From positions 62,001-126,000 of the forward strand of contig JACCXN010000010.1 of NCBI GenBank assembly GCA_013696965.1: 64,000 bases of DNA, read 5' to 3'. Shown piece by piece: positions 1-41,430 of the stretch; the stretch's first letter is position 1; each line of letters begins with the position of its first letter. Both the position numbers and the translations under genes were made by a program. The stretch is from Bacteroidota bacterium (GTDB lineage Bacteria; Bacteroidota; Bacteroidia; JACCXN01). The notes under the pieces were generated by a model. That model saw nothing but the letters and a program-made list of their open reading frames with translations, was not told where the DNA came from and ran no database searches.

Positions 1-311
1 AAGAATTAAAAATGGATGATTTAAGTGAAATTTCAAATAGGGAAAAATCAAAGAGCCTTCAACTTTTGCTATATTCTCTGTTATTTTTAAGCAAAAATCC
101 TGATTCAAGTGTAAACTCCGGAATAATTAGTTTTAAAAAGCTAAGTGCAGGAGTAATGAATTTCTCCTTAGCCGGAGAAACTACTATCAATAAAGAATTA
201 ATTGAAAATTTCGAAAGTGAATTATCGAAAATAATCAATTTTTTATTTGACAAAGAAATTGCTTTTGAACATCACCCCGATTCTTTATATTGTCCTTTTT
301 GTGCTTGTTGA
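1..311 (+). CDS. C-terminal end of a PD-(D/E)XK / AddB-like nuclease (partial)
   Basis: The reading frame is open to the left edge of the window, so this is the last ~103 codons of a longer gene; the ATG at 12 is probably internal. The visible part has a helical stretch with QLLLYSLLF, a strand-like GIISFKKL segment, and an acidic helix leading to the terminal CPFCAC. A final region with GI-S and a cysteine cluster ending in CxxCxC is what the C-terminus of AddB/RecB-type PD-(D/E)XK nucleases looks like, where cysteines bind an Fe-S cluster. If right, the protein acts in double-strand break repair. The catalytic core lies outside the window, so the call rests on the tail only. It ends 17 bases before the converging response regulator gene. 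Confidence 0.5.
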   Translation, partial: ELKMDDLSEISNREKSKSLQLLLYSLLFLSKNPDSSVNSGIISFKKLSAGVMNFSLAGETTINKELIENFESELSKIINFLFDKEIAFEHHPDSLYCPFCAC

Positions 312-328
312 ATTTGATTAAAAAAAGA

Positions 329-1012
329 TCAACTTGTAAACTTATACCCTACTCCTCTTATAGAGTGGAAGTATCTAGCTTTTTTAGTGTTTTCTTCAAA
401 GTATTTTCTAAAAGCTAATATATAATTATCAATTGTCCTTGAGGATGGGTAAACATCATCTCCCCAAATTTCATCTAATATTTCGTTCCGTGAAACAACC
501 ATATTGTTTCTTTCGATTAATAATTTGAGTAATTGGAGTTCTTTTTTGTTGATTGAAAAAATTTTTCCGTATTTATCCTTTACCTGATAGGTTTGAAAAT
601 TAATGAAATTATCACCGAAATGAAACATTGTAAATTCCTTTTCTTTTGAAGCTCTTTTTAGCAAAATATTCACTCTTAATAAAAGCTCCTCTAAATTAAA
701 TGGTTTTGTTAAATAATCATCCGCACCCAACTTAAGCCCCTTTACCCTGTCTTCACCTGAGCTTTTTGCTGTTAAAAACAAAACAGGTGTTGAAACATCT
801 GTTTTTCTTATCTCTTCACAAATTTCAAAACCAGAAATTTCTGGAAGCATAACATCTAAAATCAAAAGATTATACTTGTTTTGGCAAAACAAAGACAATG
901 CATCTTTCCCATTGGAGCAAACATCTACTTTATGTCCTTCCAATTGTAAATTCAATGCAATGATTTCACTTAAATTCTCTTCATCCTCAACCAACAATAT
1001 TTTATTTTCCAT
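329..1012 (-). CDS. OmpR/PhoB-family DNA-binding response regulator
   Basis: Two-component transcription regulator. Numbered from the ATG at 1012 (227 aa), the receiver domain covers ~1-115: acidic pair E9-D10, phosphoacceptor D53 in ILDVMLP, the switch Thr in FLTAK, and K103 in LTKPF. The C-terminal ~130-227 is a winged-helix effector domain with the typical SRTIDNYILAFRKYF recognition helix and RGVGYKF wing. A TTG two codons upstream (1018) is possible, but MENKILLVEDEE is a standard start. A near-consensus promoter box lies ~25 bases upstream. No histidine kinase is adjacent in the window, so its partner is encoded elsewhere; its regulon cannot be inferred. Confidence 0.9.
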   Translation of the reverse strand: MENKILLVEDEENLSEIIALNLQLEGHKVDVCSNGKDALSLFCQNKYNLLILDVMLPEISGFEICEEIRKTDVSTPVLFLTAKSSGEDRVKGLKLGADDYLTKPFNLEELLLRVNILLKRASKEKEFTMFHFGDNFINFQTYQVKDKYGKIFSINKKELQLLKLLIERNNMVVSRNEILDEIWGDDVYPSSRTIDNYILAFRKYFEENTKKARYFHSIRGVGYKFTS

Positions 1013-1018
1013 TTTCAA

Positions 1019-1336
1019 TGATTCGTATTTTTTTTGTAAAGGTAAATTTTAAAAAAAAGAAAACTATAATTGCAGGGATGAATTAGATTTTTTACCCTAA
1101 TAATCCAATTATTCGATGCTTTAAATTTTAAGATCCCAATTTTAATTAAAAAAAATTTTGTTTTTAAGGGATATAAAATGTAGGTTTGAAATTTATAAAA
1201 CAGAAATTAATTACCGTAAATTAAATCAAATTTCACCATTTTTAATTTAACTTTTGTTTTTATACTCAAGTACTAACGTATAATATTATTCCTTCATATT
1301 ATAACAAAAAATAAAATAACCTCTAATAGCAACAAC
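1019..1336. other. AT-rich divergent intergenic region, 318 bp
   Basis: Separates the minus-strand response regulator from the plus-strand metalloprotease. It is extremely AT-rich, with A and T runs, and carries no convincing ORF, tRNA or strong hairpin. Besides the box at 1037-1044 no TAnnTTTG element close to the metalloprotease start was found, so the position of that promoter is unresolved. Confidence 0.6.
1037..1044 (-). promoter_or_regulatory. Possible -7 box (TACCTTTA) for the response regulator
   Basis: Minus-strand TACCTTTA matches the Bacteroidota -7 element TAnnTTTG at all but the last position and sits 24 bases before the ATG at 1012. No clear -33 TTTG at the usual spacing was found. 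Confidence 0.3.
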
Positions 1337-3490
1337 ATGAAAAGAACCCTTACTCAATTTTCAACCTTGAAAAAATTATTTTTTCTATCAGCAATACTCT
1401 TTTTTTCCACTTCCTTCTCTTTCGGACAAAGAACCTGTGGTACTATGGAAAACCTTGAAATGCGAATGCAACAAGATCCTGGCCTGAAAATGAGAATGGA
1501 AGAAATGGAAAATGATATTAAGAATATTAAGGGCAACAATTCAGGATCAAGAGCTGTATTTACAATTCCTGTTGTATTTCATGTTGTTTACAGAACCGCT
1601 ACAGAGAATATTTCAGATGCAAGGTTAATTGAGCAATTAAATATATTAACAGAAGATTTCAGGAGATTAAACGCAGACAAGACAAACACTCCTGCAGGAT
1701 TTCTAGGAATTGCCGGAGATACAGAAATTGAATTTTGCCTTGCCCAACAAGACCCACTAGGAAACCCTTCAACAGGAATTACCAGAACACTTACCACTGT
1801 AACTGCATTCAACACTAATGATGCGGTAAAATTTAATGCACAAGGCGGAAAAGATGTTTGGGACAGAAATAAATATTTAAATATATGGGTTTGTAATTTA
1901 GGTAACAGTTTGTTAGGTTATGCCCAGTTTCCAGGTGGAGCTGCTGCAACTGATGGAGTTGTATGTCATTATAAATACACAGGAAAAACAGGCGCTACAG
2001 CTCCTTTTAACAAGGGTAGGACTGCAACTCATGAAGTTGGCCATTTTTTCAATTTGAGGCATATTTGGGGAGATGCGAATTGTGGGAATGATCAGGTAGC
2101 TGATACACCGGTTCAACAGGATGAAAATTATGGTTGTCCAACTTATCCTTTAAGTCCTAATTCATGTTCAACTACAAATTCAAATGGAGACATGTTCATG
2201 AATTACATGGATTATTCAGATGATGGATGTATGAATGCTTTTTCTGTAGGACAGGGAACAAGAATGCAAGCATCATTAAATCTTGCATCGCGTGTTGGTT
2301 TAAAAAATTCGATCGGTTGCCAGCCTGTTAATTTGGCCCTAAATGATGCCGGAATTTCTGCAATTATATCACCTTCAGGATCTTCTTGTGATCTTACTTT
2401 TATTCCAGTTGTTACTTTGAAAAATTTTGGTTCAAACACACTTACATCTGCAATAATAAATTTCAATATTGACGGAGGCACTAACCAAACATTCAATTAT
2501 AGTGGAACACTTGCATCTCAGGCTACTGTAAACATTACTTTAACTAGTATGACAACAAATGCAGGAAACCATACTTTTAATGCATTTACCACAATGCCAA
2601 ATGGTGTTGCTGATTCACAAAGTTCCAACGACAACTTCTCAGCCATTTTTACAATTTTAGGAGGTGCAACGTCCGTAGCATTGCCTTATCTTGAAAGTTT
2701 TGAAGGCACATTCGTACCATCAGGATGGCAATTAGTAAACCCTGACAATAATTTAACCTGGACAAAATCAGCTGCGGCAGGTGGATTTGCAAATACACCA
2801 TCGAGTGCCAAAATGGATAATTTTACTTCTACTGCAAATATTTCAGGACAAAGTGATTATTTGTACACACCCTTTTTCAACCTGAGCTCGGCACAATTAC
2901 CAATAACTCTTGATTTTAGCGTAGCCTATGCAAGATGGAGCAATACTTATCATGATTCTCTAATTGTAAACTTAAGTACTGATTGTGGCGGAACCTGGTC
3001 AAGAATCTTTGCAAAAGGCAATCTGGGTCTTGCAACAAATGGAGGTGCAAATGACACAAATCTTTTTGTTCCAACAGCTTCACAGTGGAGAGCCGAATCA
3101 ATTAATCTAAATGCATATGTTGGGAATCCTAATGTAAGAATTTCATTTCAAGCAAAAAGCGGATGGGGAAACAACTTATACATTGATGATATAGCAGTTA
3201 ATGAATCTTCTATTACAGGAATGGAAAAAAGCCAGTCCGTTAAGGGAGTTTCAGTTTATCCTAATCCTAGTAAGGGACAATTGTTTATTCAAACTGATAA
3301 TGAAGATAAGAATGCAGTTAAAATAAGCATATTTAATACACTGGGTGAAATTATTGCCAATGAAAGCAACAGCAATAACAAATCAGGAAATTATTATTTT
3401 GACATGAACAATTATCCAAATGGAATTTATTTGATAAATATTGAAACTTCTAAAGGAGTTACAGTCAAAAAAATGATTTTGGCCAAGTAA
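1337..3490 (+). CDS. Secreted M43-family zinc metalloprotease with T9SS type A sorting domain
   Basis: 717 aa. A Sec signal peptide (~1-30, ending SFSFGQ) is followed by a pro-region and an M43 (pappalysin/cytophagalysin-like) catalytic domain with the zinc motif HEVGHFFNLRH (H232, E233, H236, H242) and a Met-turn NYMDY (289-293). After this come a CARDB/Ig-like segment (~345-445), a jelly-roll region resembling MAM/choice-of-anchor domains (~455-620), and a Por secretion tail beginning near VSVYPNPSKG (~637-717). The family cleaves extracellular proteins; the tail directs export through the type IX system and surface attachment or release. The gene is monocistronic, bounded by a 318-bp AT-rich spacer and a strong terminator. 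Confidence 0.93.
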   Translation: MKRTLTQFSTLKKLFFLSAILFFSTSFSFGQRTCGTMENLEMRMQQDPGLKMRMEEMENDIKNIKGNNSGSRAVFTIPVVFHVVYRTATENISDARLIEQLNILTEDFRRLNADKTNTPAGFLGIAGDTEIEFCLAQQDPLGNPSTGITRTLTTVTAFNTNDAVKFNAQGGKDVWDRNKYLNIWVCNLGNSLLGYAQFPGGAAATDGVVCHYKYTGKTGATAPFNKGRTATHEVGHFFNLRHIWGDANCGNDQVADTPVQQDENYGCPTYPLSPNSCSTTNSNGDMFMNYMDYSDDGCMNAFSVGQGTRMQASLNLASRVGLKNSIGCQPVNLALNDAGISAIISPSGSSCDLTFIPVVTLKNFGSNTLTSAIINFNIDGGTNQTFNYSGTLASQATVNITLTSMTTNAGNHTFNAFTTMPNGVADSQSSNDNFSAIFTILGGATSVALPYLESFEGTFVPSGWQLVNPDNNLTWTKSAAAGGFANTPSSAKMDNFTSTANISGQSDYLYTPFFNLSSAQLPITLDFSVAYARWSNTYHDSLIVNLSTDCGGTWSRIFAKGNLGLATNGGANDTNLFVPTASQWRAESINLNAYVGNPNVRISFQAKSGWGNNLYIDDIAVNESSITGMEKSQSVKGVSVYPNPSKGQLFIQTDNEDKNAVKISIFNTLGEIIANESNSNNKSGNYYFDMNNYPNGIYLINIETSKGVTVKKMILAK

Positions 3491-30561: not shown

Positions 30562-32148
30562 TTGATCAACAATTTTTTGAGCATTTCAACTAACTCAGAG
30601 GTATGTGGACTTTTTACCCTTAATGTTGATGCTGGATCTTTTGTAATTATTAATGGGAGTGCTCGATTAAAAGGAGTTAGCATCTATGGTCAAGTGACTA
30701 TCAATGGGTCCTTAGCGACAAATTCTCTTGCTGTGAATGGTTTACTAATTAATAATGGTATTTTAGTAAATGGTTGGAATGGCGTTTGTGCTGCTATAAG
30801 CAGTTCAACTATAAATGCAACGACTTGTAACAGTTATACTTCTCCTAGTGGTAATTATGTCTGGACTTCTTCAGGTATTTATATGGATACTATTTCAAGT
30901 TCTACTGGTTGTGATTCTATCCTAACTGTTAACCTGACGATCAATAATAGTAGTGTAACTGTTAATAAAATGGCTTGTAATAGCTACACTTCACCAAGTG
31001 GCAACTATATCTGGACTATTTCAGGCTCCTATATTGACACAATTCCTACTGCTTTTGGTTGTGATTCTGTCATCACTATAAACCTAACTATCAATGACAA
31101 TAGTTCTGTGATTATAAATGAAACAGCTTGTGCCAGTTACTCCTCTCCTAGCGGTAATCATATTTGGACCTCCACAGGCTCTTATATTGATACTATTCCA
31201 AATAATTCAGGATGCGATTCTGTTATAACAATAAATCTAATTGTAATTGACAACAGTTTTGTGACCATTAATAAAACTGTTTGTGCCAACTACACTTCGC
31301 CAAGTAACAACTATTATTGGTCTTCTTCAGGTACTTATACTGATACTATTTCCAGTGCTTCCGGTTGTGATTCTATTATTACTGTCAACTTGACTATTAA
31401 TAATGTCATTTCAACCATTAGCGTAACAGCCTGTGTCAGTTACACTTCTCCAAGTGGAAACTATATATGGACTACTTCTGGTACATTTACCGACACTATT
31501 CCAACTTCATTCGGTTGCGATTCTATCCTAATTATCAATCTGATTATTGATAATAGCCCTGTAACACTGAATGAAACGGCTTGTATAAGTTTTACTTCCC
31601 CAAGCGGAAACTATAGCTGGACATCTTCAGGAACTTATTTTGATACTATTCAAACTTCTTTAGGTTGTGATTCAATCCTAATAATCAATCTTATTATTAA
31701 TAATAGCCCTGTAACAATATATAAAACGACCTGTATAAGTTTTACATCCCCAAGCGGAAGTTATACCTGGACAGCTTCAGGAACTTATTTTGATACTATT
31801 CCAACAGCTTTCGGTTGCGATTCAATTATAACTGTGGAACTTATAATTAGTGATGAGAATAAATATGATTTTCAAATACCTAATGTGTTTACACCTAATG
31901 ATGATGGTATAAATGATACATTTATAATTAATTATGAAGGTGTTTTAATAAATTTAGATTTAAAAATTTATACTAGATGGGGAACCTTGATTTTTCAAGG
32001 TGGAATTGATGATTACTGGAAGGGCGATACTCCTTCGGGAAATAAATCTCCAGAAGGAGTATATTTTTATGTAGTACAATCTAAAATAGAGATTTGTGAC
32101 GAAATAACTCCACATTTTTTTCAAGGCACAGTCTCTTTATTGCGATAA
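30562..32148 (+). CDS. Seven-repeat surface protein with T9SS type B (CHU_C) sorting domain
   Basis: 528 aa from the TTG at 30562, but the coding frame clearly extends upstream (see the preceding entry), so this start is nominal. The first ~85 residues are a beta-helix-like stretch (NGSLATNSLAVNGLLINNG). Seven ~50-residue repeats follow, each with SPSGNYIW, SGTYxDTI and GCDSIITINLTI and two conserved cysteines. The C-terminal ~95 residues, from IPNVFTPNDDGINDTF to the end, form the gliding-motility-associated type B sorting domain (IYTRWGTLIF, PEGVYFY). Export through the type IX system to the cell surface is expected; repeats of this kind occur in adhesin-like Bacteroidota proteins. Without the signal peptide it could not be secreted. 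Confidence 0.85.
   Translation: MINNFLSISTNSEVCGLFTLNVDAGSFVIINGSARLKGVSIYGQVTINGSLATNSLAVNGLLINNGILVNGWNGVCAAISSSTINATTCNSYTSPSGNYVWTSSGIYMDTISSSTGCDSILTVNLTINNSSVTVNKMACNSYTSPSGNYIWTISGSYIDTIPTAFGCDSVITINLTINDNSSVIINETACASYSSPSGNHIWTSTGSYIDTIPNNSGCDSVITINLIVIDNSFVTINKTVCANYTSPSNNYYWSSSGTYTDTISSASGCDSIITVNLTINNVISTISVTACVSYTSPSGNYIWTTSGTFTDTIPTSFGCDSILIINLIIDNSPVTLNETACISFTSPSGNYSWTSSGTYFDTIQTSLGCDSILIINLIINNSPVTIYKTTCISFTSPSGSYTWTASGTYFDTIPTAFGCDSIITVELIISDENKYDFQIPNVFTPNDDGINDTFIINYEGVLINLDLKIYTRWGTLIFQGGIDDYWKGDTPSGNKSPEGVYFYVVQSKIEICDEITPHFFQGTVSLLR
30811..31866 (+). repeat. Seven tandem in-frame repeats of 150-153 bp
   Basis: Units start at about 30811, 30961, 31114, 31267, 31417, 31567 and 31717, with spacing 150, 153, 153, 150, 150 and 150 bases. 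They encode the SPSGNY / GCDS repeat. Units 5-7 are most alike at the protein level (ACISFTSPSG), units 1-4 more diverged, so the last units look like the most recent duplicates. Confidence 0.9.
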
Positions 32149-32933: not shown

Positions 32934-33320
32934 ATGAAAAACATTATTCTTATATCAATTTTATTTGTTTCTCATTTAACAATAAAAGCCCAAACCTTGA
33001 ATTCTGAGGCTATTGCACAGGCTTTTAAATCTGGAAACGCGAAGGAACTATCCAAATATTTCAGTCCAAATGTTGAGCTTAAAGTTTTTAACAAGGAAGA
33101 TGTTTACAGCAAAACACAAGCTGAAATCATAGTTAAGGATTTTTTTACAAAAAACCCTCCAAAAAATTATGTTGAAGTTCACAATGGAACCTCCAAGGCC
33201 GGAGCCCAATATATTATAGGACAACTCACTACAGCAAACGGAACCTTCAGAATCAATTATTTCCTTAAAAAAAGTAGCGATTCCTATTTTATTCAGGAAC
33301 TTAGATTTGAAGAGGAATAA
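32934..33320 (+). CDS. DUF4783 family exported protein
   Basis: 128 aa from the ATG at 32934; an upstream TTG at 32901 would put 11 charged residues before the signal peptide (MKNIILISILFVSHLTIKAQ) and is rejected. The mature part (~20-128) is a small alpha+beta domain of NTF2-like appearance: IAQAFKSGNAKELSKYF, KTQAEIIVKDFF, GTFRINYFLKK and a final QELRFEEE. It matches my recollection of DUF4783, a Bacteroidota family commonly beside nadC. It should be periplasmic or outer-membrane associated; function unknown. nadC begins one base after its stop codon. Confidence 0.8.
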   Translation: MKNIILISILFVSHLTIKAQTLNSEAIAQAFKSGNAKELSKYFSPNVELKVFNKEDVYSKTQAEIIVKDFFTKNPPKNYVEVHNGTSKAGAQYIIGQLTTANGTFRINYFLKKSSDSYFIQELRFEEE

Positions 33321-33321
33321 A

Positions 33322-34167
33322 ATGGAGCATTTTTCTATTACGGATTTTATTAAACGTGCTTTTGAAGAAGATTCAGGGGATGGAGATCACACCTCTTTGG
33401 CATGTATTCCTTTTGAAGCAACTGGAAAAGCAAATCTTATTGTCAAGGAAGAAGGGATATTGGCAGGAATGGAACTTGCAGAACAAATATTCTTTTATGC
33501 TGATCAAAACATCCAGTTTATTCCCTATATAAAAGATGGAAGTATAATTAAACCAGGTGATATAGCGTTTTTAGTTATAGGAAAAACACAAGCTATTTTA
33601 AAAGCAGAGCGAATTGCTTTAAATTGCCTGCAAAGAATGAGTGGAATAGCAACTCAGACACGAAATATTGTCAATAAGCTTGAAGGCTTAAACACCCGCG
33701 TTTTAGATACCAGAAAAACCACACCGGGAATGCGTTATTTTGAAAAATTATCTGTTAAGGCCGGTGGAGGTGAAAATCACAGATTTGGCCTTTACGATAT
33801 GATTATGATAAAAGACAACCATATTGATTATGCCGGAGGAATTAAACAGGCAATTGATTTAACACATAATTATTTAAAGAGGACAGGTAAAAATTTAAAA
33901 ATCGAAATTGAAACCAGAAATTTAAATGAACTCCAACAGGTTTTAAATCAAGGAGGAATTGACAGAATAATGTTGGACAATTTTTCACCCTTGGATTTAA
34001 AAAAAGCCATTGCGATGATAAATAAAGAATATGAAACTGAAGCATCAGGAGGCATTACCGAAGAAACTATAAGGGATTATGCTTTATCAGGTGTTGATTA
34101 CATTTCTATAGGTGCACTTACCCACCATATTAAGAGTCTTGATTTAAGCCTAAAGGCAATAAAATAA
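33322..34167 (+). CDS. nadC: Nicotinate-nucleotide pyrophosphorylase (carboxylating)
   Basis: 281 aa from ATG 33322; a TTG at 33307 lies inside the preceding gene and is not needed. Core motifs are GDGDHTS near the N-terminus, LNCLQRMSGIAT, DTRKTTPG (129-136), KAGGGENHR and MIKDNH, then IEIETRN, MLDNF and EASGGIT. The enzyme converts quinolinate and phosphoribosyl pyrophosphate to nicotinate mononucleotide in de novo NAD synthesis, in the cytoplasm. It is sandwiched without spacing between DUF4783 and yihY, so all three are co-transcribed. Confidence 0.96.
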   Translation: MEHFSITDFIKRAFEEDSGDGDHTSLACIPFEATGKANLIVKEEGILAGMELAEQIFFYADQNIQFIPYIKDGSIIKPGDIAFLVIGKTQAILKAERIALNCLQRMSGIATQTRNIVNKLEGLNTRVLDTRKTTPGMRYFEKLSVKAGGGENHRFGLYDMIMIKDNHIDYAGGIKQAIDLTHNYLKRTGKNLKIEIETRNLNELQQVLNQGGIDRIMLDNFSPLDLKKAIAMINKEYETEASGGITEETIRDYALSGVDYISIGALTHHIKSLDLSLKAIK

Positions 34168-35097
34168 ATGCAACAAAAAATTTTCAACTACCTAAAAGGC
34201 CTCAGAACAATTTCTGCTGCTATTGATTGGAGTAAACACCTAATCCTTCCTGGCTTTGACGGGACACCACTTTATTCTGTTATTAAGTTTTTTATTCAGG
34301 GTGTCAAAAAAAGTTCGCTAACAACCCGCGCCTCTGCTCTGGCTTTTAATTTCTTTATTGCCATTTTTCCAGGGCTCATATTTCTTTTCACACTAATTCC
34401 CTATATCCCCATTGATGATTTTCAAAATCAGTTGCTGCTTTTAATGAAAGACATTCTGCCTTACAATGCCTATGAATCAATTAAAATAACAATAGAAGAT
34501 TTGGTACTCAGGCAAAGAGGAGGACTACTTTCCATTGGCTTTTTTCTTGCGGTTTATTTTGCCACCAATGGTTTTAGTTCAATGATTGATGCATTTAACA
34601 ATTCCTTTTATATTGCTGAAACAAGAAGTACACTCATGCAATTTATTATTTCTGTTGCCCTTGTTTTTATTATTACGATATTAATCTTAATTGCCATTAC
34701 CTTCATTGTTTTCAGCAGTTTAACTTTAAATTACCTATTAGAGAAGGGAATTTTACAGGATAACTACCATGTATCCTTGCTACATATAGGAAAATGGCTT
34801 GTAATTGTAGCCTTACTTTTCTTTTGTTTCTCCTTTATGTATTATATTGGACCGAGCAAAAAATCAAAGTTTAGATTTATTTCTGCAGGCTCCTCACTTT
34901 CCACCCTGCTTTCTATACTCACTTCTATTGGTTTTGCCTATTATGTCAATAATTTCGGACAGTACAATAAACTTTACGGTTCTATCGGAACCATTATTGT
35001 TATCCTCCTTTGGATGCAGTTTAATTCACTTATCCTGCTTATTGGTTTTGAATTGAATGCCAGCATTAAACAAGGAAGGTTAGATAGGGAGGAATAA
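34168..35097 (+). CDS. YihY/BrkB-family inner membrane protein
   Basis: 309 aa, with six hydrophobic helices and the family patterns SLTTRASALAFNFFIAIFPGLIFL, AVYFATNGFSSMIDAFN and, near the end, LYGSIGTIIVILLWMQFNSLILLIGFELNA. Its function is not established; members were once called RNase BN by mistake and are now treated as transporters or envelope proteins of unknown substrate. The ATG is directly adjacent to the nadC stop codon (TAAATG), indicating translational coupling. Confidence 0.9.
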   Translation: MQQKIFNYLKGLRTISAAIDWSKHLILPGFDGTPLYSVIKFFIQGVKKSSLTTRASALAFNFFIAIFPGLIFLFTLIPYIPIDDFQNQLLLLMKDILPYNAYESIKITIEDLVLRQRGGLLSIGFFLAVYFATNGFSSMIDAFNNSFYIAETRSTLMQFIISVALVFIITILILIAITFIVFSSLTLNYLLEKGILQDNYHVSLLHIGKWLVIVALLFFCFSFMYYIGPSKKSKFRFISAGSSLSTLLSILTSIGFAYYVNNFGQYNKLYGSIGTIIVILLWMQFNSLILLIGFELNASIKQGRLDREE

Positions 35098-35238: not shown

Positions 35239-38200
35239 ATGAAGAAAATTTTACTATCCTTAGCTATAATAATAATCTTTCATACAAGTGTTTTCTCACA
35301 AACTTACGATGCCCTTCAGCCTCCTAACACTTACAGGAATGCTGACAATCCTTATTATTGGCAGAATCGAAAACCTCACCCAACATACTGGCAACAGGAT
35401 GTACATTATACCATTAAGGCCAATATTGATGAGAAAACAGATATAATTACTGCTGTTGAAGAATTGGTATATTGGAATAATTCTCCGGACGAACTTAATT
35501 TTGTTTTTTTTCATCTTTTTCAAAATGCATTTCAGCCTGATTCTTATTATGATAAACTTCACAAGGAAAATAAGGTAAATCCCAAATATGGCAAATACGA
35601 AAGCCAGAGGTTAGGCACCCAAATATCGAAAATTACTGTTGATGGCAAGGAGGTTAAAACCGAATTGGATAATACAGTTTTGAAAGTTTATTTGCCAAAA
35701 GGTTTAAAAAGTGGAGAATCAATAAAGTTTAATATTGATTTTAAAACCTATTTCGACAAGGGAGGGGATGTAAGAAGAAGGATGAAAATATTTAATGCTT
35801 ATGGTTACAAGCACTATGACGGAGTGCATTGGTATCCCCGAATTTCTGTTTATGATAATAAATTTGGCTGGTCGCCCGATCAACATTTAGGTAGGGAGTT
35901 TTATGGAAACTTTGGAACCTATGATGTTGAACTTACTTTTGCCAATAATTTTATTTTAGATGCCACTGGTAATTTAATAAACAGGAATGAAGTTCTTCCT
36001 TCCGAATTGCTTAAAAAGTTAGATATCCGGAATTTTAAGGATAAACCACTTTATGAAACTCCTTCAGTGATTATTCCATACGACAGCACCATAAGAAAGA
36101 CCTGGAAGTTTCATGCTGAAAACGTTCATGATTTTGCTTTTACCTCTGACCCAACTTATAGAATAGGTGAAGCTGAATGGAATGGTATAAAAACTATTGC
36201 ACTTGCCCAGGAGCCCCATGCATCCAGATGGCAGAATGCAGCAGAATTTGCAGCCAAAGTTATACAGGTTTATTCTGAGGATATTGGAATGTATGCCTAT
36301 CCTAAAATGATTGTAGCTGATGCACAGGATGGAATGGAATATCCTATGTTGACTTTAGATGGAGGATTCGAACCTGATAATCATGGTTTATTGGCTCATG
36401 AAATAGCCCATAACTGGTTTTATGGCATGGTTGCAAGTAATGAAACCTACAGGGCTTTCATGGATGAGGGCTTTACTCAATTTCTAACCTCATGGAGCTT
36501 AAGGCGAATCGAGGGGGAGGAAATGACACTTTCGCCCCCAGCATCTCCTTATGTTAGAAAATTCAAGGAGCCAGCAAACACAATGGACAGAAATGTATAT
36601 TCAGGTTATATGGCAGATGCCATACTTACATCTGATGATGCTTGCTTAAATACACATTCTGATCAATTTGGCGGAGCTTTAAGGCACGGTGGAGGATACA
36701 GGCAAGTATATTATAAAACAGCCACCATGCTTTACAACCTGCAATATGTTTTAGGGGATAGCTTGTTTTGGAATGCTATGCAACATTATTTTAACCAATG
36801 GAAATTTGCTCACCCCTATCCTGAGGACTTTCGTAATTCAATTATTAATTATACTAAAGTGGATTTGAACTGGTTTTTTGACCAGTGGTTAGAAACCACA
36901 AAAAAGATTGATTACAAAGTAAAATCTATAAAAAAGGGAGATGGGAAAGACAACTACCTGATTACTTTTAAAAGAAAAGAGAGGATGCAAATGCCTTTAG
37001 ACTTTGATGTAATTGCAAAAAACGACTCTGTTTATAGTTTTCACATTCCTAATAATTGGTTTGAAAAGCAAACTACTGCTACAATTCTCCCCAGATGGAT
37101 TGGATGGGATATATTACAACCAAATTACACAGCGCAGGTAAGTATTCCATGGGGAATAAAAAATATAGTAATTGATCCTACAGAAAGACTTGCAGATGTT
37201 TATATGCTAAACAACAGCAAAAAAACTCCTGTTTCTTTAAAACTTGATCATAAGATATACAATGCTCCGAGTTGGAAAAAATATGAACTTTTTGCTCGTC
37301 CGGATGTATGGTACAATGGTTATGACGGAATAAAAGCGGGTTTTCATGTAAACGGAAATTATTTTAATAAACATCATATTTTTGATTTGTCTGCCTGGTA
37401 TAATACTGGCATTTTACAAAATCAGCAAATGGCCAGCCCTGCACCAAATGATTATGATTTAATTAATTTTCGTTTATCTTATAAAACTTCAATTGACAAA
37501 TTAATTAAGAAAAGCAATTTCTTTTTGTCTGCTCGCTCCCTTGATGGTTTACGCATGCTTACCACTGGTGTTGAAAGATTTAACAAGCATGGGAACAACA
37601 GGGTTTATAGCTATTTTAAAACAATGGTAAGGCCTGATACAAGTGATACTTATTACCTTTTATTTCCAAATGAATGGATTCCTAATAAATTCAATAACAC
37701 CATTAATTTTGGAATGGATCACAACTACTTTTATCAGAAAGGTAAAGGAATGATCAATTTGAATTTAAAAAGCTCGGCTTTTGGGGATTATGATTATTCT
37801 ATACTCTCCTTAAATGTGGTAAACTACAACAAATTGGGAAAATTTGATATAAACACAAGGACTTTTGCTCAGTTTGGCGCAGCAAGATCATTGCCCAGAG
37901 AATCTGCCTTGTATTTATACGGTGCTAATCCTGAAGAATTAATGGAAAATAAATATACGCGTTCGGCAGGCATTTTCCCTCCCGAATGGGGTGGATTCGG
38001 AGTAACTACGAATCACTTCCATCATGGTGGCGGATTGAACCTGAGAGGATATTCCGGATATGTTGCTCCTGCAATAAATAATGAAACGGATTTAGTTTTG
38101 GCATACAAAGGACTTACAGGTGCGGCATTCAATATTGAAATTGAATTTGATAGATTAATTGCACTTATGCCAAGAAGGTTAAGAAATACTTTTAAAATTG

Positions 38201-38466
38201 ATTCATATCTTTTTGCTGATGCTGGAGTGATTAATACAAACTTGCCGGGAGAAAGGCTTAGGTTTGATTACCTTAGAGCTGATGCAGGAATTGGCACAGC
38301 CCTTACTATTAAAAAATGGGGACCACTGCAAATGGTAAACCCTTTGACCATTCGCTTTGACGTTCCTTTCTTTATTAATAGAACTCCTGCAGTTGATCCA
38401 GAACCAATTGAACCTTTAGACTACATTCGATTTAGATGGGTAATTGCTGTGAGCAGGGCTTTTTAA
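35239..38466 (+). CDS. M1-family zinc aminopeptidase with C-terminal Omp85-like beta-barrel
   Basis: 1075 aa. Signal peptide 1-21 (ending SVFSQ). Residues ~40-620 are an M1 metallopeptidase: HEIAH (H387, E388, H391) with the third zinc ligand E410 in FMDEGF exactly 19 residues on, and QDGMEYP in place of GxMEN. From ~676 to the end (400 aa) the chain changes to alternating, aromatic-rich strands. It includes NLRGYSGY (LRGY 935-938), the L6-loop R-G-Y/F motif of Omp85 proteins, about 139 residues before the C-terminus as in BamA (~150); FADAGV; and a beta-signal-like RFRWVIAVSRAF ending in Phe. I infer a peptidase tethered to an outer-membrane barrel. Its substrate is unknown. Monocistronic. 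Confidence 0.85.
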   Translation: MKKILLSLAIIIIFHTSVFSQTYDALQPPNTYRNADNPYYWQNRKPHPTYWQQDVHYTIKANIDEKTDIITAVEELVYWNNSPDELNFVFFHLFQNAFQPDSYYDKLHKENKVNPKYGKYESQRLGTQISKITVDGKEVKTELDNTVLKVYLPKGLKSGESIKFNIDFKTYFDKGGDVRRRMKIFNAYGYKHYDGVHWYPRISVYDNKFGWSPDQHLGREFYGNFGTYDVELTFANNFILDATGNLINRNEVLPSELLKKLDIRNFKDKPLYETPSVIIPYDSTIRKTWKFHAENVHDFAFTSDPTYRIGEAEWNGIKTIALAQEPHASRWQNAAEFAAKVIQVYSEDIGMYAYPKMIVADAQDGMEYPMLTLDGGFEPDNHGLLAHEIAHNWFYGMVASNETYRAFMDEGFTQFLTSWSLRRIEGEEMTLSPPASPYVRKFKEPANTMDRNVYSGYMADAILTSDDACLNTHSDQFGGALRHGGGYRQVYYKTATMLYNLQYVLGDSLFWNAMQHYFNQWKFAHPYPEDFRNSIINYTKVDLNWFFDQWLETTKKIDYKVKSIKKGDGKDNYLITFKRKERMQMPLDFDVIAKNDSVYSFHIPNNWFEKQTTATILPRWIGWDILQPNYTAQVSIPWGIKNIVIDPTERLADVYMLNNSKKTPVSLKLDHKIYNAPSWKKYELFARPDVWYNGYDGIKAGFHVNGNYFNKHHIFDLSAWYNTGILQNQQMASPAPNDYDLINFRLSYKTSIDKLIKKSNFFLSARSLDGLRMLTTGVERFNKHGNNRVYSYFKTMVRPDTSDTYYLLFPNEWIPNKFNNTINFGMDHNYFYQKGKGMINLNLKSSAFGDYDYSILSLNVVNYNKLGKFDINTRTFAQFGAARSLPRESALYLYGANPEELMENKYTRSAGIFPPEWGGFGVTTNHFHHGGGLNLRGYSGYVAPAINNETDLVLAYKGLTGAAFNIEIEFDRLIALMPRRLRNTFKIDSYLFADAGVINTNLPGERLRFDYLRADAGIGTALTIKKWGPLQMVNPLTIRFDVPFFINRTPAVDPEPIEPLDYIRFRWVIAVSRAF

Positions 38467-38556: not shown

Positions 38557-39831
38557 TTATTTCACTAAAGCTGCAAAATACAGCACCAAATCTGGAAATA
38601 CAGTAACAAGAGCAAGGGTTAAAACCAGGCAAAGCATAAATGGAAGAGAAGCTGTTACAACCTGATTAAAGGGCTTATTGAATAAACCACTGGAAACAAA
38701 AAGATTAATTCCTATTGGAGGTGTCATATAGCCTATTTCAAGGGCGAGAATAAAAATAATACCCAAATGAATCAGGTCAACATCATAAAACAAGGCTGTT
38801 GGAACAAGTAAAGGGGCAAGAATAAGTATAGCGGAAATTACATCCATAAATAGTCCTGCTATTAAAAGAACCAAAATTGTAAGAAACAGGAACATGTATT
38901 TAGAAGTAACCATTTCAGTCATAAAATCAACAAGCATGAATGGAATATCCTGAAGGGTGAGAAAATAGTTAAAGACAGTTGCCATGGCAATTATTATAAA
39001 AATAATTCCAAGAACAATAACAGAATCATAAAGAGTTTGAACTAAATCCTTAATTTTCATTTCTCTAAACACGAACATTTCTATAATAATGGCATAAACT
39101 GCAGCTACTGCAGCGGCCTCGGTAACGGTATAAATTCCAGCATAAATACCACCAAGAATAATTACAGGCATCATAATAGCCGGTATTCCCTTGGCAAAAC
39201 TAACAGCAGCAAGCCTTGCAGAAAACTTTACCGTAGGCAGATTAAGCTTAAATCCATAATAAAGACACATAATCATCAATAATACCCCTGCAATTGCACC
39301 AGGAACAATACCTGCTATGAATAATTTATTTACGTTGGCACCGGTTACCATAGCAAAAACAATAAGCGGAATGCTTGGGGGAATGAGTATACCAAGGGAA
39401 CCTGAAACAGTTAATGCTCCCAGTGAAAGATTTTCGGGATAACCATTTTTTATTAATGCTGGGTACATAATTGTTCCAATTGCAATTAGGGTTACTGGGG
39501 AAGAACCGGAAATGGCGGCAAAAAATATACAAGCAATCACGCTGGCAACAGCTAAACCACCCTTCATCCATCCAAAAGTGCTTAAGGCTAAATCGATCAA
39601 TCGCCCTGCTATTACTCCTCGCGCCATGATGGCCCCGGCAAAAACATACAAAGGAATTGCCAGTAACGCTGATTTATTTACTGAATCAAACATAGTTTTG
39701 GTTACAGCAAACATTGGGATATCAATATAAAGGTAAAAAAGCAGCAGGGAAATTCCACCAATGACTAAAAACAACTGGGCGCCTAAAAAAACCAGCACCA
39801 ATAGGGCAACTAAAACAATTAGCAGTTCCAT
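38557..39831 (-). CDS. dctM: TRAP transporter large permease (DctM family)
   Basis: 424 aa with about 12 membrane helices, including the family patterns AISGSSPVTLIAIGTIMYPALIK (an A-x-x-G-S-S motif), SGSLGILIPPSIPLIVFA and EIGYMTPPIGINLFV. It is the Na+-coupled transport subunit of a tripartite ATP-independent periplasmic system. ATG at 39831 overlaps the dctQ stop by one base (TGATG); a TTG one codon upstream is less likely. It closes the TatT-dctP-dctQ-dctM operon and converges on the M1 peptidase gene, with only a 90-bp spacer and no convincing terminator. Confidence 0.95.
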   Translation of the reverse strand: MELLIVLVALLVLVFLGAQLFLVIGGISLLLFYLYIDIPMFAVTKTMFDSVNKSALLAIPLYVFAGAIMARGVIAGRLIDLALSTFGWMKGGLAVASVIACIFFAAISGSSPVTLIAIGTIMYPALIKNGYPENLSLGALTVSGSLGILIPPSIPLIVFAMVTGANVNKLFIAGIVPGAIAGVLLMIMCLYYGFKLNLPTVKFSARLAAVSFAKGIPAIMMPVIILGGIYAGIYTVTEAAAVAAVYAIIIEMFVFREMKIKDLVQTLYDSVIVLGIIFIIIAMATVFNYFLTLQDIPFMLVDFMTEMVTSKYMFLFLTILVLLIAGLFMDVISAILILAPLLVPTALFYDVDLIHLGIIFILALEIGYMTPPIGINLFVSSGLFNKPFNQVVTASLPFMLCLVLTLALVTVFPDLVLYFAALVK

Positions 39832-40364
39832 CAAATCATTTGTTTTTGAACTATTTCTTCTTCCTGTCTTCGCCCGGAATATACATCATACCATAAAAGA
39901 CTTGAAAAGGCATATCGAATAGCAGAAAGCAAAAAACTAAGCGGTACAATGAGTATTATCCACCATATTGGAATACCCAGAACAACATCAATATCGTTCA
40001 TCTCTTTACTAATTTGCATGTATTCATAGGAAAGTAAGCAAATAATAAAAAGGAAAACTGAAGCCAAAAAACAAGTAACAATATTCATTAAATATTTTGT
40101 TTTAGGCTTTACTTTGGCTTTTATAAATTCAATTTCAACATGGCGTAATTTGGATGTCGCAATTTGAAATCCAATAAAACCCAGCCATACCATCAGATAA
40201 GTAGCAAGTCGGTCAACACCGAATAAGGGTTCTTTTAATGCATACCGGGAAACAGTACCGGCAAAAACTATAACTACAATGGCAGTAATAACAGCAACAG
40301 CAAAATATTTTTCGAAAATTTCAAATTTTGCATTCGCTTTCAGGTAATAACCTGTTAAGGACAT
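39831..40364 (-). CDS. dctQ: TRAP transporter small permease (DctQ family)
   Basis: 177 aa with four membrane helices. The loop with ATYLMVWLGFIGFQIATSKLRHVEIEFI holds the characteristic W-x-G-F and H-x-x-x motifs of DctQ. It forms the complex with the large permease in the inner membrane. Spacing is tight on both sides: five bases after dctP and one base of overlap with dctM. The C-terminus is rather charged (GRRQEEEIVQKQ). Confidence 0.92.
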   Translation of the reverse strand: MSLTGYYLKANAKFEIFEKYFAVAVITAIVVIVFAGTVSRYALKEPLFGVDRLATYLMVWLGFIGFQIATSKLRHVEIEFIKAKVKPKTKYLMNIVTCFLASVFLFIICLLSYEYMQISKEMNDIDVVLGIPIWWIILIVPLSFLLSAIRYAFSSLLWYDVYSGRRQEEEIVQKQMI

Positions 40365-40369
40365 ATATT

Positions 40370-41365
40370 CTATTTTTTAGATTGCCTGTATTTCTGAATT
40401 TCATTGTTCATGCGTTGCATAATACCTGTTCCAATCTTTTTTTCCATAATAGCATAAACGGGCTTTGTTGCTTTTTTAAACTCCTCTCTTTGGGCATCAG
40501 TAAGCCTGATTAACTTAACTCCTGAAATCTCCTCCATTGAGTTTACCATTTCTGCATCATCATCACGCACATATTTATTTGATCTTTTTTGAAGGTTTAC
40601 TTTTGCAGCAGAGGCAATAATTGCAGTTTGAGCATGTGGGGGAAGTTTATCATAGAACTTCTTTGATATTACAATAGCACCTGGTTGATAAATATGATTG
40701 GATAAAGTAAAATGTTTGCTTGCAGTTGTCCAGCCTGTAGATATTGAAAAAATCGGTGTTTGATCAAAACCATCAACCATTCCTGACTTTAAAGAAACGA
40801 GAACATCCGGAGTTGAAATTGGCACAGGGGTAGCTCCAAGTGACTTGTAAAAATTAATATAAACATCTGATTCCTGGGAACGCATTTTTAATCCTTTCAA
40901 ATCCTCAGGTTTTGTTATTGGTTTATGGCGTGTTCCAAAACTCCTCCAACCGTTGGATCCCCACATTACCAGCATGAGGCCTTTTTTTTCTAAAATATCA
41001 GACATGGGCTTGAACATTGCGTCCATTACATGGTCAGCTTCTGCATCAGATTCAAAAAGAAAAGGCAGTTCAAACACTTGTAATTCTGGAATTCCTAGAG
41101 CTTCTGCAAGGGCTGCGGTTGTAAATCCTCCAGCCTCAAGTGTGCCCATTGCTACACTTTTTATCATTTCAACCTCGCCTCCAAGCTGTCCACCTAAATA
41201 GGTTTTAAACTTTAAAGCCCCTTGGGCTTTACCCTCTGCATAAGTGATGTATTCATTCAAACCGGTTTCCCAGGGACTATCCTTGGGAATTACACTTCCG
41301 AATTTAACTTTGAATTCTTGGGTTGTAAAAACAACAACAACTATTAGGGCCAGGAATGTTTTCAT
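40370..41365 (-). CDS. dctP: TRAP transporter substrate-binding protein (DctP family)
   Basis: 331 aa from ATG 41365 (a TTG two codons upstream is rejected). After a signal peptide come VKFGSVIPKDSPWETGLNEY, the typical start of DctP, LGGQLGGEVEMI, FELPFLF and LKGLKMRSQES, where R162 is in the position that salt-bridges the substrate carboxylate in this family, then SLGATPVPI and DGFDQTP. It delivers a carboxylate-bearing ligand to DctQM in the periplasm. Because a TatT-type partner gene lies upstream, the ligand may be hydrophobic or be shuttled through a TatT trimer, as proposed for the Treponema pallidum Tp0956/Tp0957 pair. Confidence 0.93.
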   Translation of the reverse strand: MKTFLALIVVVVFTTQEFKVKFGSVIPKDSPWETGLNEYITYAEGKAQGALKFKTYLGGQLGGEVEMIKSVAMGTLEAGGFTTAALAEALGIPELQVFELPFLFESDAEADHVMDAMFKPMSDILEKKGLMLVMWGSNGWRSFGTRHKPITKPEDLKGLKMRSQESDVYINFYKSLGATPVPISTPDVLVSLKSGMVDGFDQTPIFSISTGWTTASKHFTLSNHIYQPGAIVISKKFYDKLPPHAQTAIIASAAKVNLQKRSNKYVRDDDAEMVNSMEEISGVKLIRLTDAQREEFKKATKPVYAIMEKKIGTGIMQRMNNEIQKYRQSKK

Positions 41366-41430
41366 AAACAAATAGTATTAAATAATTAATTTGAGAATAA
41401 GCAATTTTGAAATTCTCATTGCTTTTTCAC

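Follow-up and report, generated by a model that had tools for sequence, protein, structure and literature searches.

An M1 peptidase joined to a POTRA-less Omp85-type outer-membrane barrel in Bacteroidota

Characterised members of the Omp85 superfamily mostly assemble or translocate proteins by means of POTRA-linked barrels. POTRA domains are usual in the superfamily, not universal, and 'noNterm' members are devoid of them. The patatin-Omp85 (type Vd) protein PlpD joins an N-terminal enzyme to a C-terminal 16-strand Omp85 barrel. The enzyme domain of PlpD was long thought to be exported, and work published in 2024 shows that it resides exclusively in the periplasm (PMC11116518). Ten Omp85 subfamilies were distinguished by Heinz and Lithgow, including 'noNterm' and a 'Metallo' subfamily characterised by PF00149, which is termed a metalloprotease there; the word peptidase is absent from the main text (PMC4104836).

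The locus described here lies in a window of 64,000 nucleotides of a Bacteroidota genome (assembly GCA_013696965.1, contig JACCXN010000010.1, positions 62,001 to 126,000) and encodes an M1 peptidase followed by an Omp85-type barrel (Table 1). It shares with PlpD the order of the two domains and, probably, the periplasmic location of the enzyme. In contrast to PlpD, the enzyme is a zinc M1 peptidase and not a patatin lipase, POTRA is missing between enzyme and barrel, the protein occurs in Bacteroidota and its enzyme domain has been repeatedly lost. With M1 in place of the patatin domain and POTRA, the fusion falls outside the patatin-Omp85 (PlpD) family. The initial annotation had likened it to PlpD with a peptidase head, and the comparison stands: PlpD is the nearest known architecture, which the fusion resembles without being a member of that family.

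Other described proteins share either one of the two domains or a similar arrangement. TamL and BamA of Bacteroidota have the barrel fold, the RGY loop (RAW in TamL) and the FxDxG strand in common with the fusion, in which the M1 head replaces the POTRA domains and the PF01103 match is lacking. In the 'Metallo' subfamily, too, the head on the Omp85 barrel is a metal-dependent enzyme; this head differs in being PF00149, which we take to be a calcineurin-like phosphoesterase family, and not peptidase M1. The 'noNterm' subfamily, an Omp85 barrel without an N-terminal domain, corresponds to the stand-alone relatives of our barrel. PepN, ERAP1, IRAP and LTA4H share the HExxH-x18-E site, the catalytic tyrosine and the M1 fold, whereas the fusion has a membrane barrel for the all-helical C-terminal domain and GMEYP for GxMEN. 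We considered whether BamP, from the BAM complex of Flavobacterium johnsoniae, might be related and rejected it, as the paper on this complex lists no peptidase subunit and describes no M1 protein (PMC12611786).

No description of an M1-Omp85 protein was found in the open-access full texts searched, and we provisionally regard the combination as new. PlpD demonstrates that an Omp85 scaffold can carry an enzyme; the M1 fusion adds a second, unrelated one, without POTRA, and its family is common in a phylum with unusual outer-membrane biogenesis.

Table 1. Features of the fusion gene and its upstream neighbours (positions within the window)
Feature	Position	Strand	Remarks
M1 peptidase-Omp85 barrel protein	35239..38466	+	1075 aa, ATG start; 75 full-length orthologues
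Sec signal peptide, residues 1-20	35239..35298	+	sequence; helix 2-18 in AF2 model
M1 peptidase head, residues 54-645, domains I-III	35398..37173	+	PF01433, AF2, Foldseek
Zinc site HEIAH (387-391) and E410	36397..36468	+	invariant in 75 orthologues
GMEYP (365-369), variant of the GxMEN N-terminus-recognition motif	36331..36345	+	E367 invariant
Y491, predicted catalytic tyrosine	36709..36711	+	invariant in 75 orthologues
Short linker without POTRA, residues 646-681	37174..37281	+	AF2 secondary structure
Omp85-type 16-strand outer-membrane barrel, residues 682-1075	37282..38463	+	AF2, Foldseek, hhalign
Long extracellular loop L6, residues 885-960, strands 11/12	37891..38118	+	AF2 secondary structure
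R936-G937-Y938, L6 motif (BamA: VRGF/Y)	38044..38052	+	R and G invariant; Y in at least 90%
F992-A-D994-A-G996 in strand 13	38212..38226	+	F, D and G invariant; strand 985-999 (AF2)
C-terminal strand and beta-signal, RFRWVIAVSRAF	38428..38463	+	R1066 invariant; F1075 in at least 90%
YihY (UPF0761)-type inner-membrane protein gene (presumed), upstream neighbour	34168..35097	+	sequence reading
nadC-type gene (presumed), same recurring cluster	33307..34167	+	sequence reading

Peptidase head and barrel fold

The sole significant Pfam match in the 1075-aa protein is Peptidase_M1 (PF01433, E 2e-14), and the NCBIfam matches are weak and of the PepN type. Across 75 aligned sequences, H387, E388, H391, E410, E367 and Y491 are invariant, which bears out the placement of H387-E-I-A-H391 and E410 in the initial annotation. 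Both the HExxH-x18-E zinc site and the position of the catalytic tyrosine, by which peptidase family M1 is recognised, are present. Y491 is the predicted catalytic tyrosine; for this assignment VYYKT was aligned by eye to VYEKG of PepN, whose chains match profile positions 485-574. When the full-length AF2 model was compared with known structures by Foldseek, the best 50 matches were all M1 enzymes, among them IRAP/ERAP (E 5.8e-23). The all-helical C-terminal domain of the PepN/ERAP type is absent from the model and the barrel occupies its place, while free M1 relatives of ~613-658 aa stop at the position corresponding to residue 659-670 of the fusion. Since the GxMEN-type E367 and the full zinc site are retained in the 75 sequences, the head would be expected to act as an aminopeptidase; GGMEY or GMEY is present in distant and second-family fusions, too. 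The signal peptide contains no lipobox cysteine, and its cleavage would fall before Q21, which is kept in at least 90% of the 75 orthologues.

Full-length AF2 prediction from the 75-row alignment (pLDDT 88.7, pTM 0.85) places 16 strands (residues 682-1071) after the M1 domains and the linker, so that the soluble beta-sandwich once considered as an alternative for residues 670-1075 gives way to the 16-strand barrel that had been proposed. The only very long loop of this barrel is the one between strands 11 and 12 and carries NLRGYSGY, and FADAG is located in strand 13. In BamA, VRGF is part of L6, which joins strands 11 and 12, and the arginine of this motif touches FxDxG in strand 13; the layout of the motifs in the fusion agrees with that of BamA. 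R936 is exactly 139 residues from the end, where the initial annotation had put its loop motif at about this distance, and the FADAG and C-terminal phenylalanine that it listed are also in place. R936, G937, F992, D994 and G996 are invariant and F1075 is conserved in at least 90% of the 75 orthologues; with the motif and zinc residues invariant throughout this set, chance is excluded. No POTRA helix pair was found in residues 559-681 of the model, which consist of strands and coil apart from, at most, a single short helical turn (656-658). As only M1 enzymes appeared among the best 50 full-length matches, the barrel was also modelled alone (pLDDT 87.6), and all of its best 50 Foldseek matches are BamA chains (top E 4.2e-9), with modest TM-scores of 0.38-0.49 (by query length) and rmsd of 7-15.

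Distribution of the fusion and loss of the peptidase

The barrel was found in 192 of 396 sampled genomes of the same class, nearly always as the C-terminal end of a protein of ~1,050-1,170 aa, and in the phylum-wide sample it occurs both fused and alone. As we read the match table, ~27 of the 40 relatives searched encode a closely related protein of the full-length type, a count that includes a few proteins that are partial or cut by contig ends. A scan of GTDB genomes returned at least 80 loci with 51-63% identity. The fusion is intact in independent assemblies and is therefore not an assembly artefact. The split ORFs in L039 and L246 were taken as frameshifts and do not count as cases of separate peptidase and barrel genes.

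The same genome encodes a paralogue of 1002 aa (L025, ORF 256-3264, minus strand; G000 contig 41, 43508-45196) that has an intact M1 zinc site and counterparts in most genomes of the relatives. The C-terminus of this second family is related to the Omp85-type barrel (96.2%, E 2.4e-9 in hhalign), which suggests that the M1-barrel architecture is probably older than the split of the two families. Second-family barrels are mostly without RGY and, taken alone, score 3.6% to TamL and are not recognisably Omp85. The L025 paralogue adjoins a thioredoxin-fold lipoprotein-like gene.

In the barrel tree, at least three changes between the fused and the stand-alone state are needed on well-supported branches, the root and the long branches being uncertain and the direction of change in the deepest clade being left unproven. 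The two shallow changes are peptidase losses nested among fused forms. For instance, two genomes (G372 and G397) encode the barrel only; it carries a signal peptide of its own and immediately follows a yihY-type gene, the same junction at which the genus-mate G011 has the full fusion; the fusion is also retained in genus-mates G343, G420 and G441. No close M1 copy was found relocated in the head-less genomes, whose best M1 proteins are 32-33% identical. The idea that the peptidase had moved elsewhere in them was rejected, these proteins falling among the ordinary M1 proteins, free or of the second family, that the sister genomes also encode. At L242 (5517-6839) and L243 (5372-6694), both on the minus strand, the locus of the fusion holds the barrel only, with a fresh signal peptide, and the upstream yihY-type gene overlaps the barrel gene as it does in a genus-mate retaining the fusion.

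Two further proteins have an altered head. In G006 the catalytic domain is lost, and the barrel is kept together with what is, in an alignment by eye, the putative last M1 beta-sandwich. The protein of G003 (L188 1619-4657, minus strand) retains the M1 fold but neither of the zinc histidines, reading RELAF for HEIAH and SMDWP for GMEYP; its barrel motif is intact (GGLNLRGYSG), and it is a predicted natural pseudo-peptidase with a dead zinc site. Such natural peptidase-less or zinc-dead variants separate the barrel from the protease function without engineering. Stand-alone barrels of ~420 aa (L138-L166), with GANLRGY and YLFxDAG, form a diverse clade in another class; no M1 gene lies within 1.5 kb of them, and a Pfam scan of four of them gave no family. 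Where their flanks could be read, Nudix-like and acetate-kinase-like genes often adjoin.

Since head-less lineages keep the barrel, the simplest reading is that it has a role independent of the peptidase, which suggests a job of its own beyond that of a mere anchor. The function of the head-less barrel could differ from that of the fused form. Alternatively, the barrel would do nothing else than hold the peptidase under the outer membrane, with the head-less forms being relics or otherwise reused. We consider this unlikely, although the two parts stay fused in most class members with the barrel, the zinc site invariant in 75 orthologues indicates that the peptidase function is under selection, and the second M1 family of the same genome has a related barrel mostly without RGY. 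A headless pure anchor would be expected to decay, whereas NLRGYxGY, FxDxG and intact signal peptides are still present in the head-less orthologues that occupy the same locus, and the stand-alone clade of the other class is diverse and long-lived.

Location of the head and a proposed mechanism

The reading that we prefer, and regard as likely, is that of a periplasmic aminopeptidase tethered to the outer membrane by a POTRA-less Omp85 barrel that has its own function. According to it, the protein would be exported by Sec and its barrel would come to sit in the outer membrane, R936 and the FxDxG strand holding L6 fast within the barrel. The zinc M1 domain would hang in the periplasm below the barrel, fixed to the barrel mouth by the short linker; there, at the inner face of the outer membrane, it may trim peptides or unfolded proteins from their N-termini. 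The barrel, more than an anchor, would most likely aid the assembly or passage of clients at the outer membrane.

Two locations of the peptidase had been left open in the initial annotation, periplasmic or self-exported to the surface. Given the even number of strands and the N-terminal signal, we infer that both termini are periplasmic; together with the absence of POTRA and the precedent of PlpD, whose enzyme domain is exclusively periplasmic, this favours a periplasmic head and makes surface export unlikely. A type Vd-like protein, with a barrel that exports its own M1 head to the surface of the cell, appears quite improbable. Omp85 barrels are able to translocate proteins, as FhaC does, and PlpD itself was originally read as exporting its enzyme domain. 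However, the head of PlpD was found in the periplasm only (PMC11116518), the fusion has neither POTRA nor a passenger-type linker, the linker comprising just ~36 residues in the AF2 model, and a globular zinc enzyme of 590 residues is an improbable passenger.

Beyond this periplasmic, barrel-tethered peptidase, we tentatively put forward, as a possibility somewhat short of even, a new, phylum-wide Omp85 subfamily of POTRA-less barrels that act alone at the outer membrane and that bear, in most lineages, an M1 head for periplasmic processing. If this is true, the role of the barrel, be it in assembly, translocation or lipid transport, would represent a new Omp85 function or accessory route.

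Omp85 membership and gene neighbourhood

A PF01103 match predicted earlier for residues 670-1075 is absent, both from the 1075-aa protein and from all 75 barrel sequences, and single-sequence Pfam and NCBIfam searches gave no Omp85 link for the barrel. PF01103 is a curated model of an Omp85 subset, not a definition of the superfamily. The barrel profile was therefore broadened with stand-alone and distant fused barrels, and hhalign was run between it and profiles made from the TamL and BamA proteins of relatives, which are so labelled from our own reading of their PF01103 matches. The broad profile matched TamL with 94.1% (E 1.3e-7) and BamA with 83.1% (E 9e-6), and the yardstick comparison of TamL with BamA gave 92.7% (E 4.3e-7). 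Other outer-membrane barrel families remained at 0.2% (PorV) and 4.5% (PorP/SprF), reversed profiles at no more than 1.1% and column shuffles at no more than 0.4%. The narrow family profile alone reached E 0.31 with BamA and 44% with TamL. By this measure, the barrel is tied to the Omp85 superfamily as closely as TamL and BamA are tied to each other. The lack of an Omp85 profile match, which the initial annotation would have held against the barrel, thus applies to the Pfam profile and is overturned by hhalign and the fold comparison. That the C-terminus is a barrel of some other outer-membrane family, with RGY and FxDxG as chance likenesses, is largely refuted and extremely improbable: the Pfam result in 75 of 75 barrels and the narrow-profile scores point that way, but the broad-profile match equals that between TamL and BamA with PorV and PorP/SprF at 5% or less, BamA stands alone among the best 50 Foldseek matches, and the positions of the motifs relative to the strands fit BamA.

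The genes preceding the fusion belong to a cluster, rlmH - small secreted protein - nadC - yihY, that recurs upstream in part of the family. Among the 76 loci with enough upstream DNA, yihY is upstream in 29, in ~20 of these at most 152 bp from the gene, a nadC-type gene is upstream in 31, and none of the four cluster genes is upstream in 43. The gene neighbours offer no functional clue beyond the recurring rlmH-nadC-yihY cluster, which we treat as a lead to an inner-membrane partner and nothing further. Elsewhere in the window, a repeat-rich secreted protein (30562-32148, plus strand) was recognised by eye, with SYTSPSGNYIWTSSGTYTDTI..GCDSI-type repeats and a C-terminal domain resembling those of gliding-motility or type IX proteins. 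Directly downstream of the fusion gene, on the opposite strand (38557-41371, minus), lies a TRAP-type transporter set, also read by eye, with large and small membrane subunits and a substrate-binding protein.
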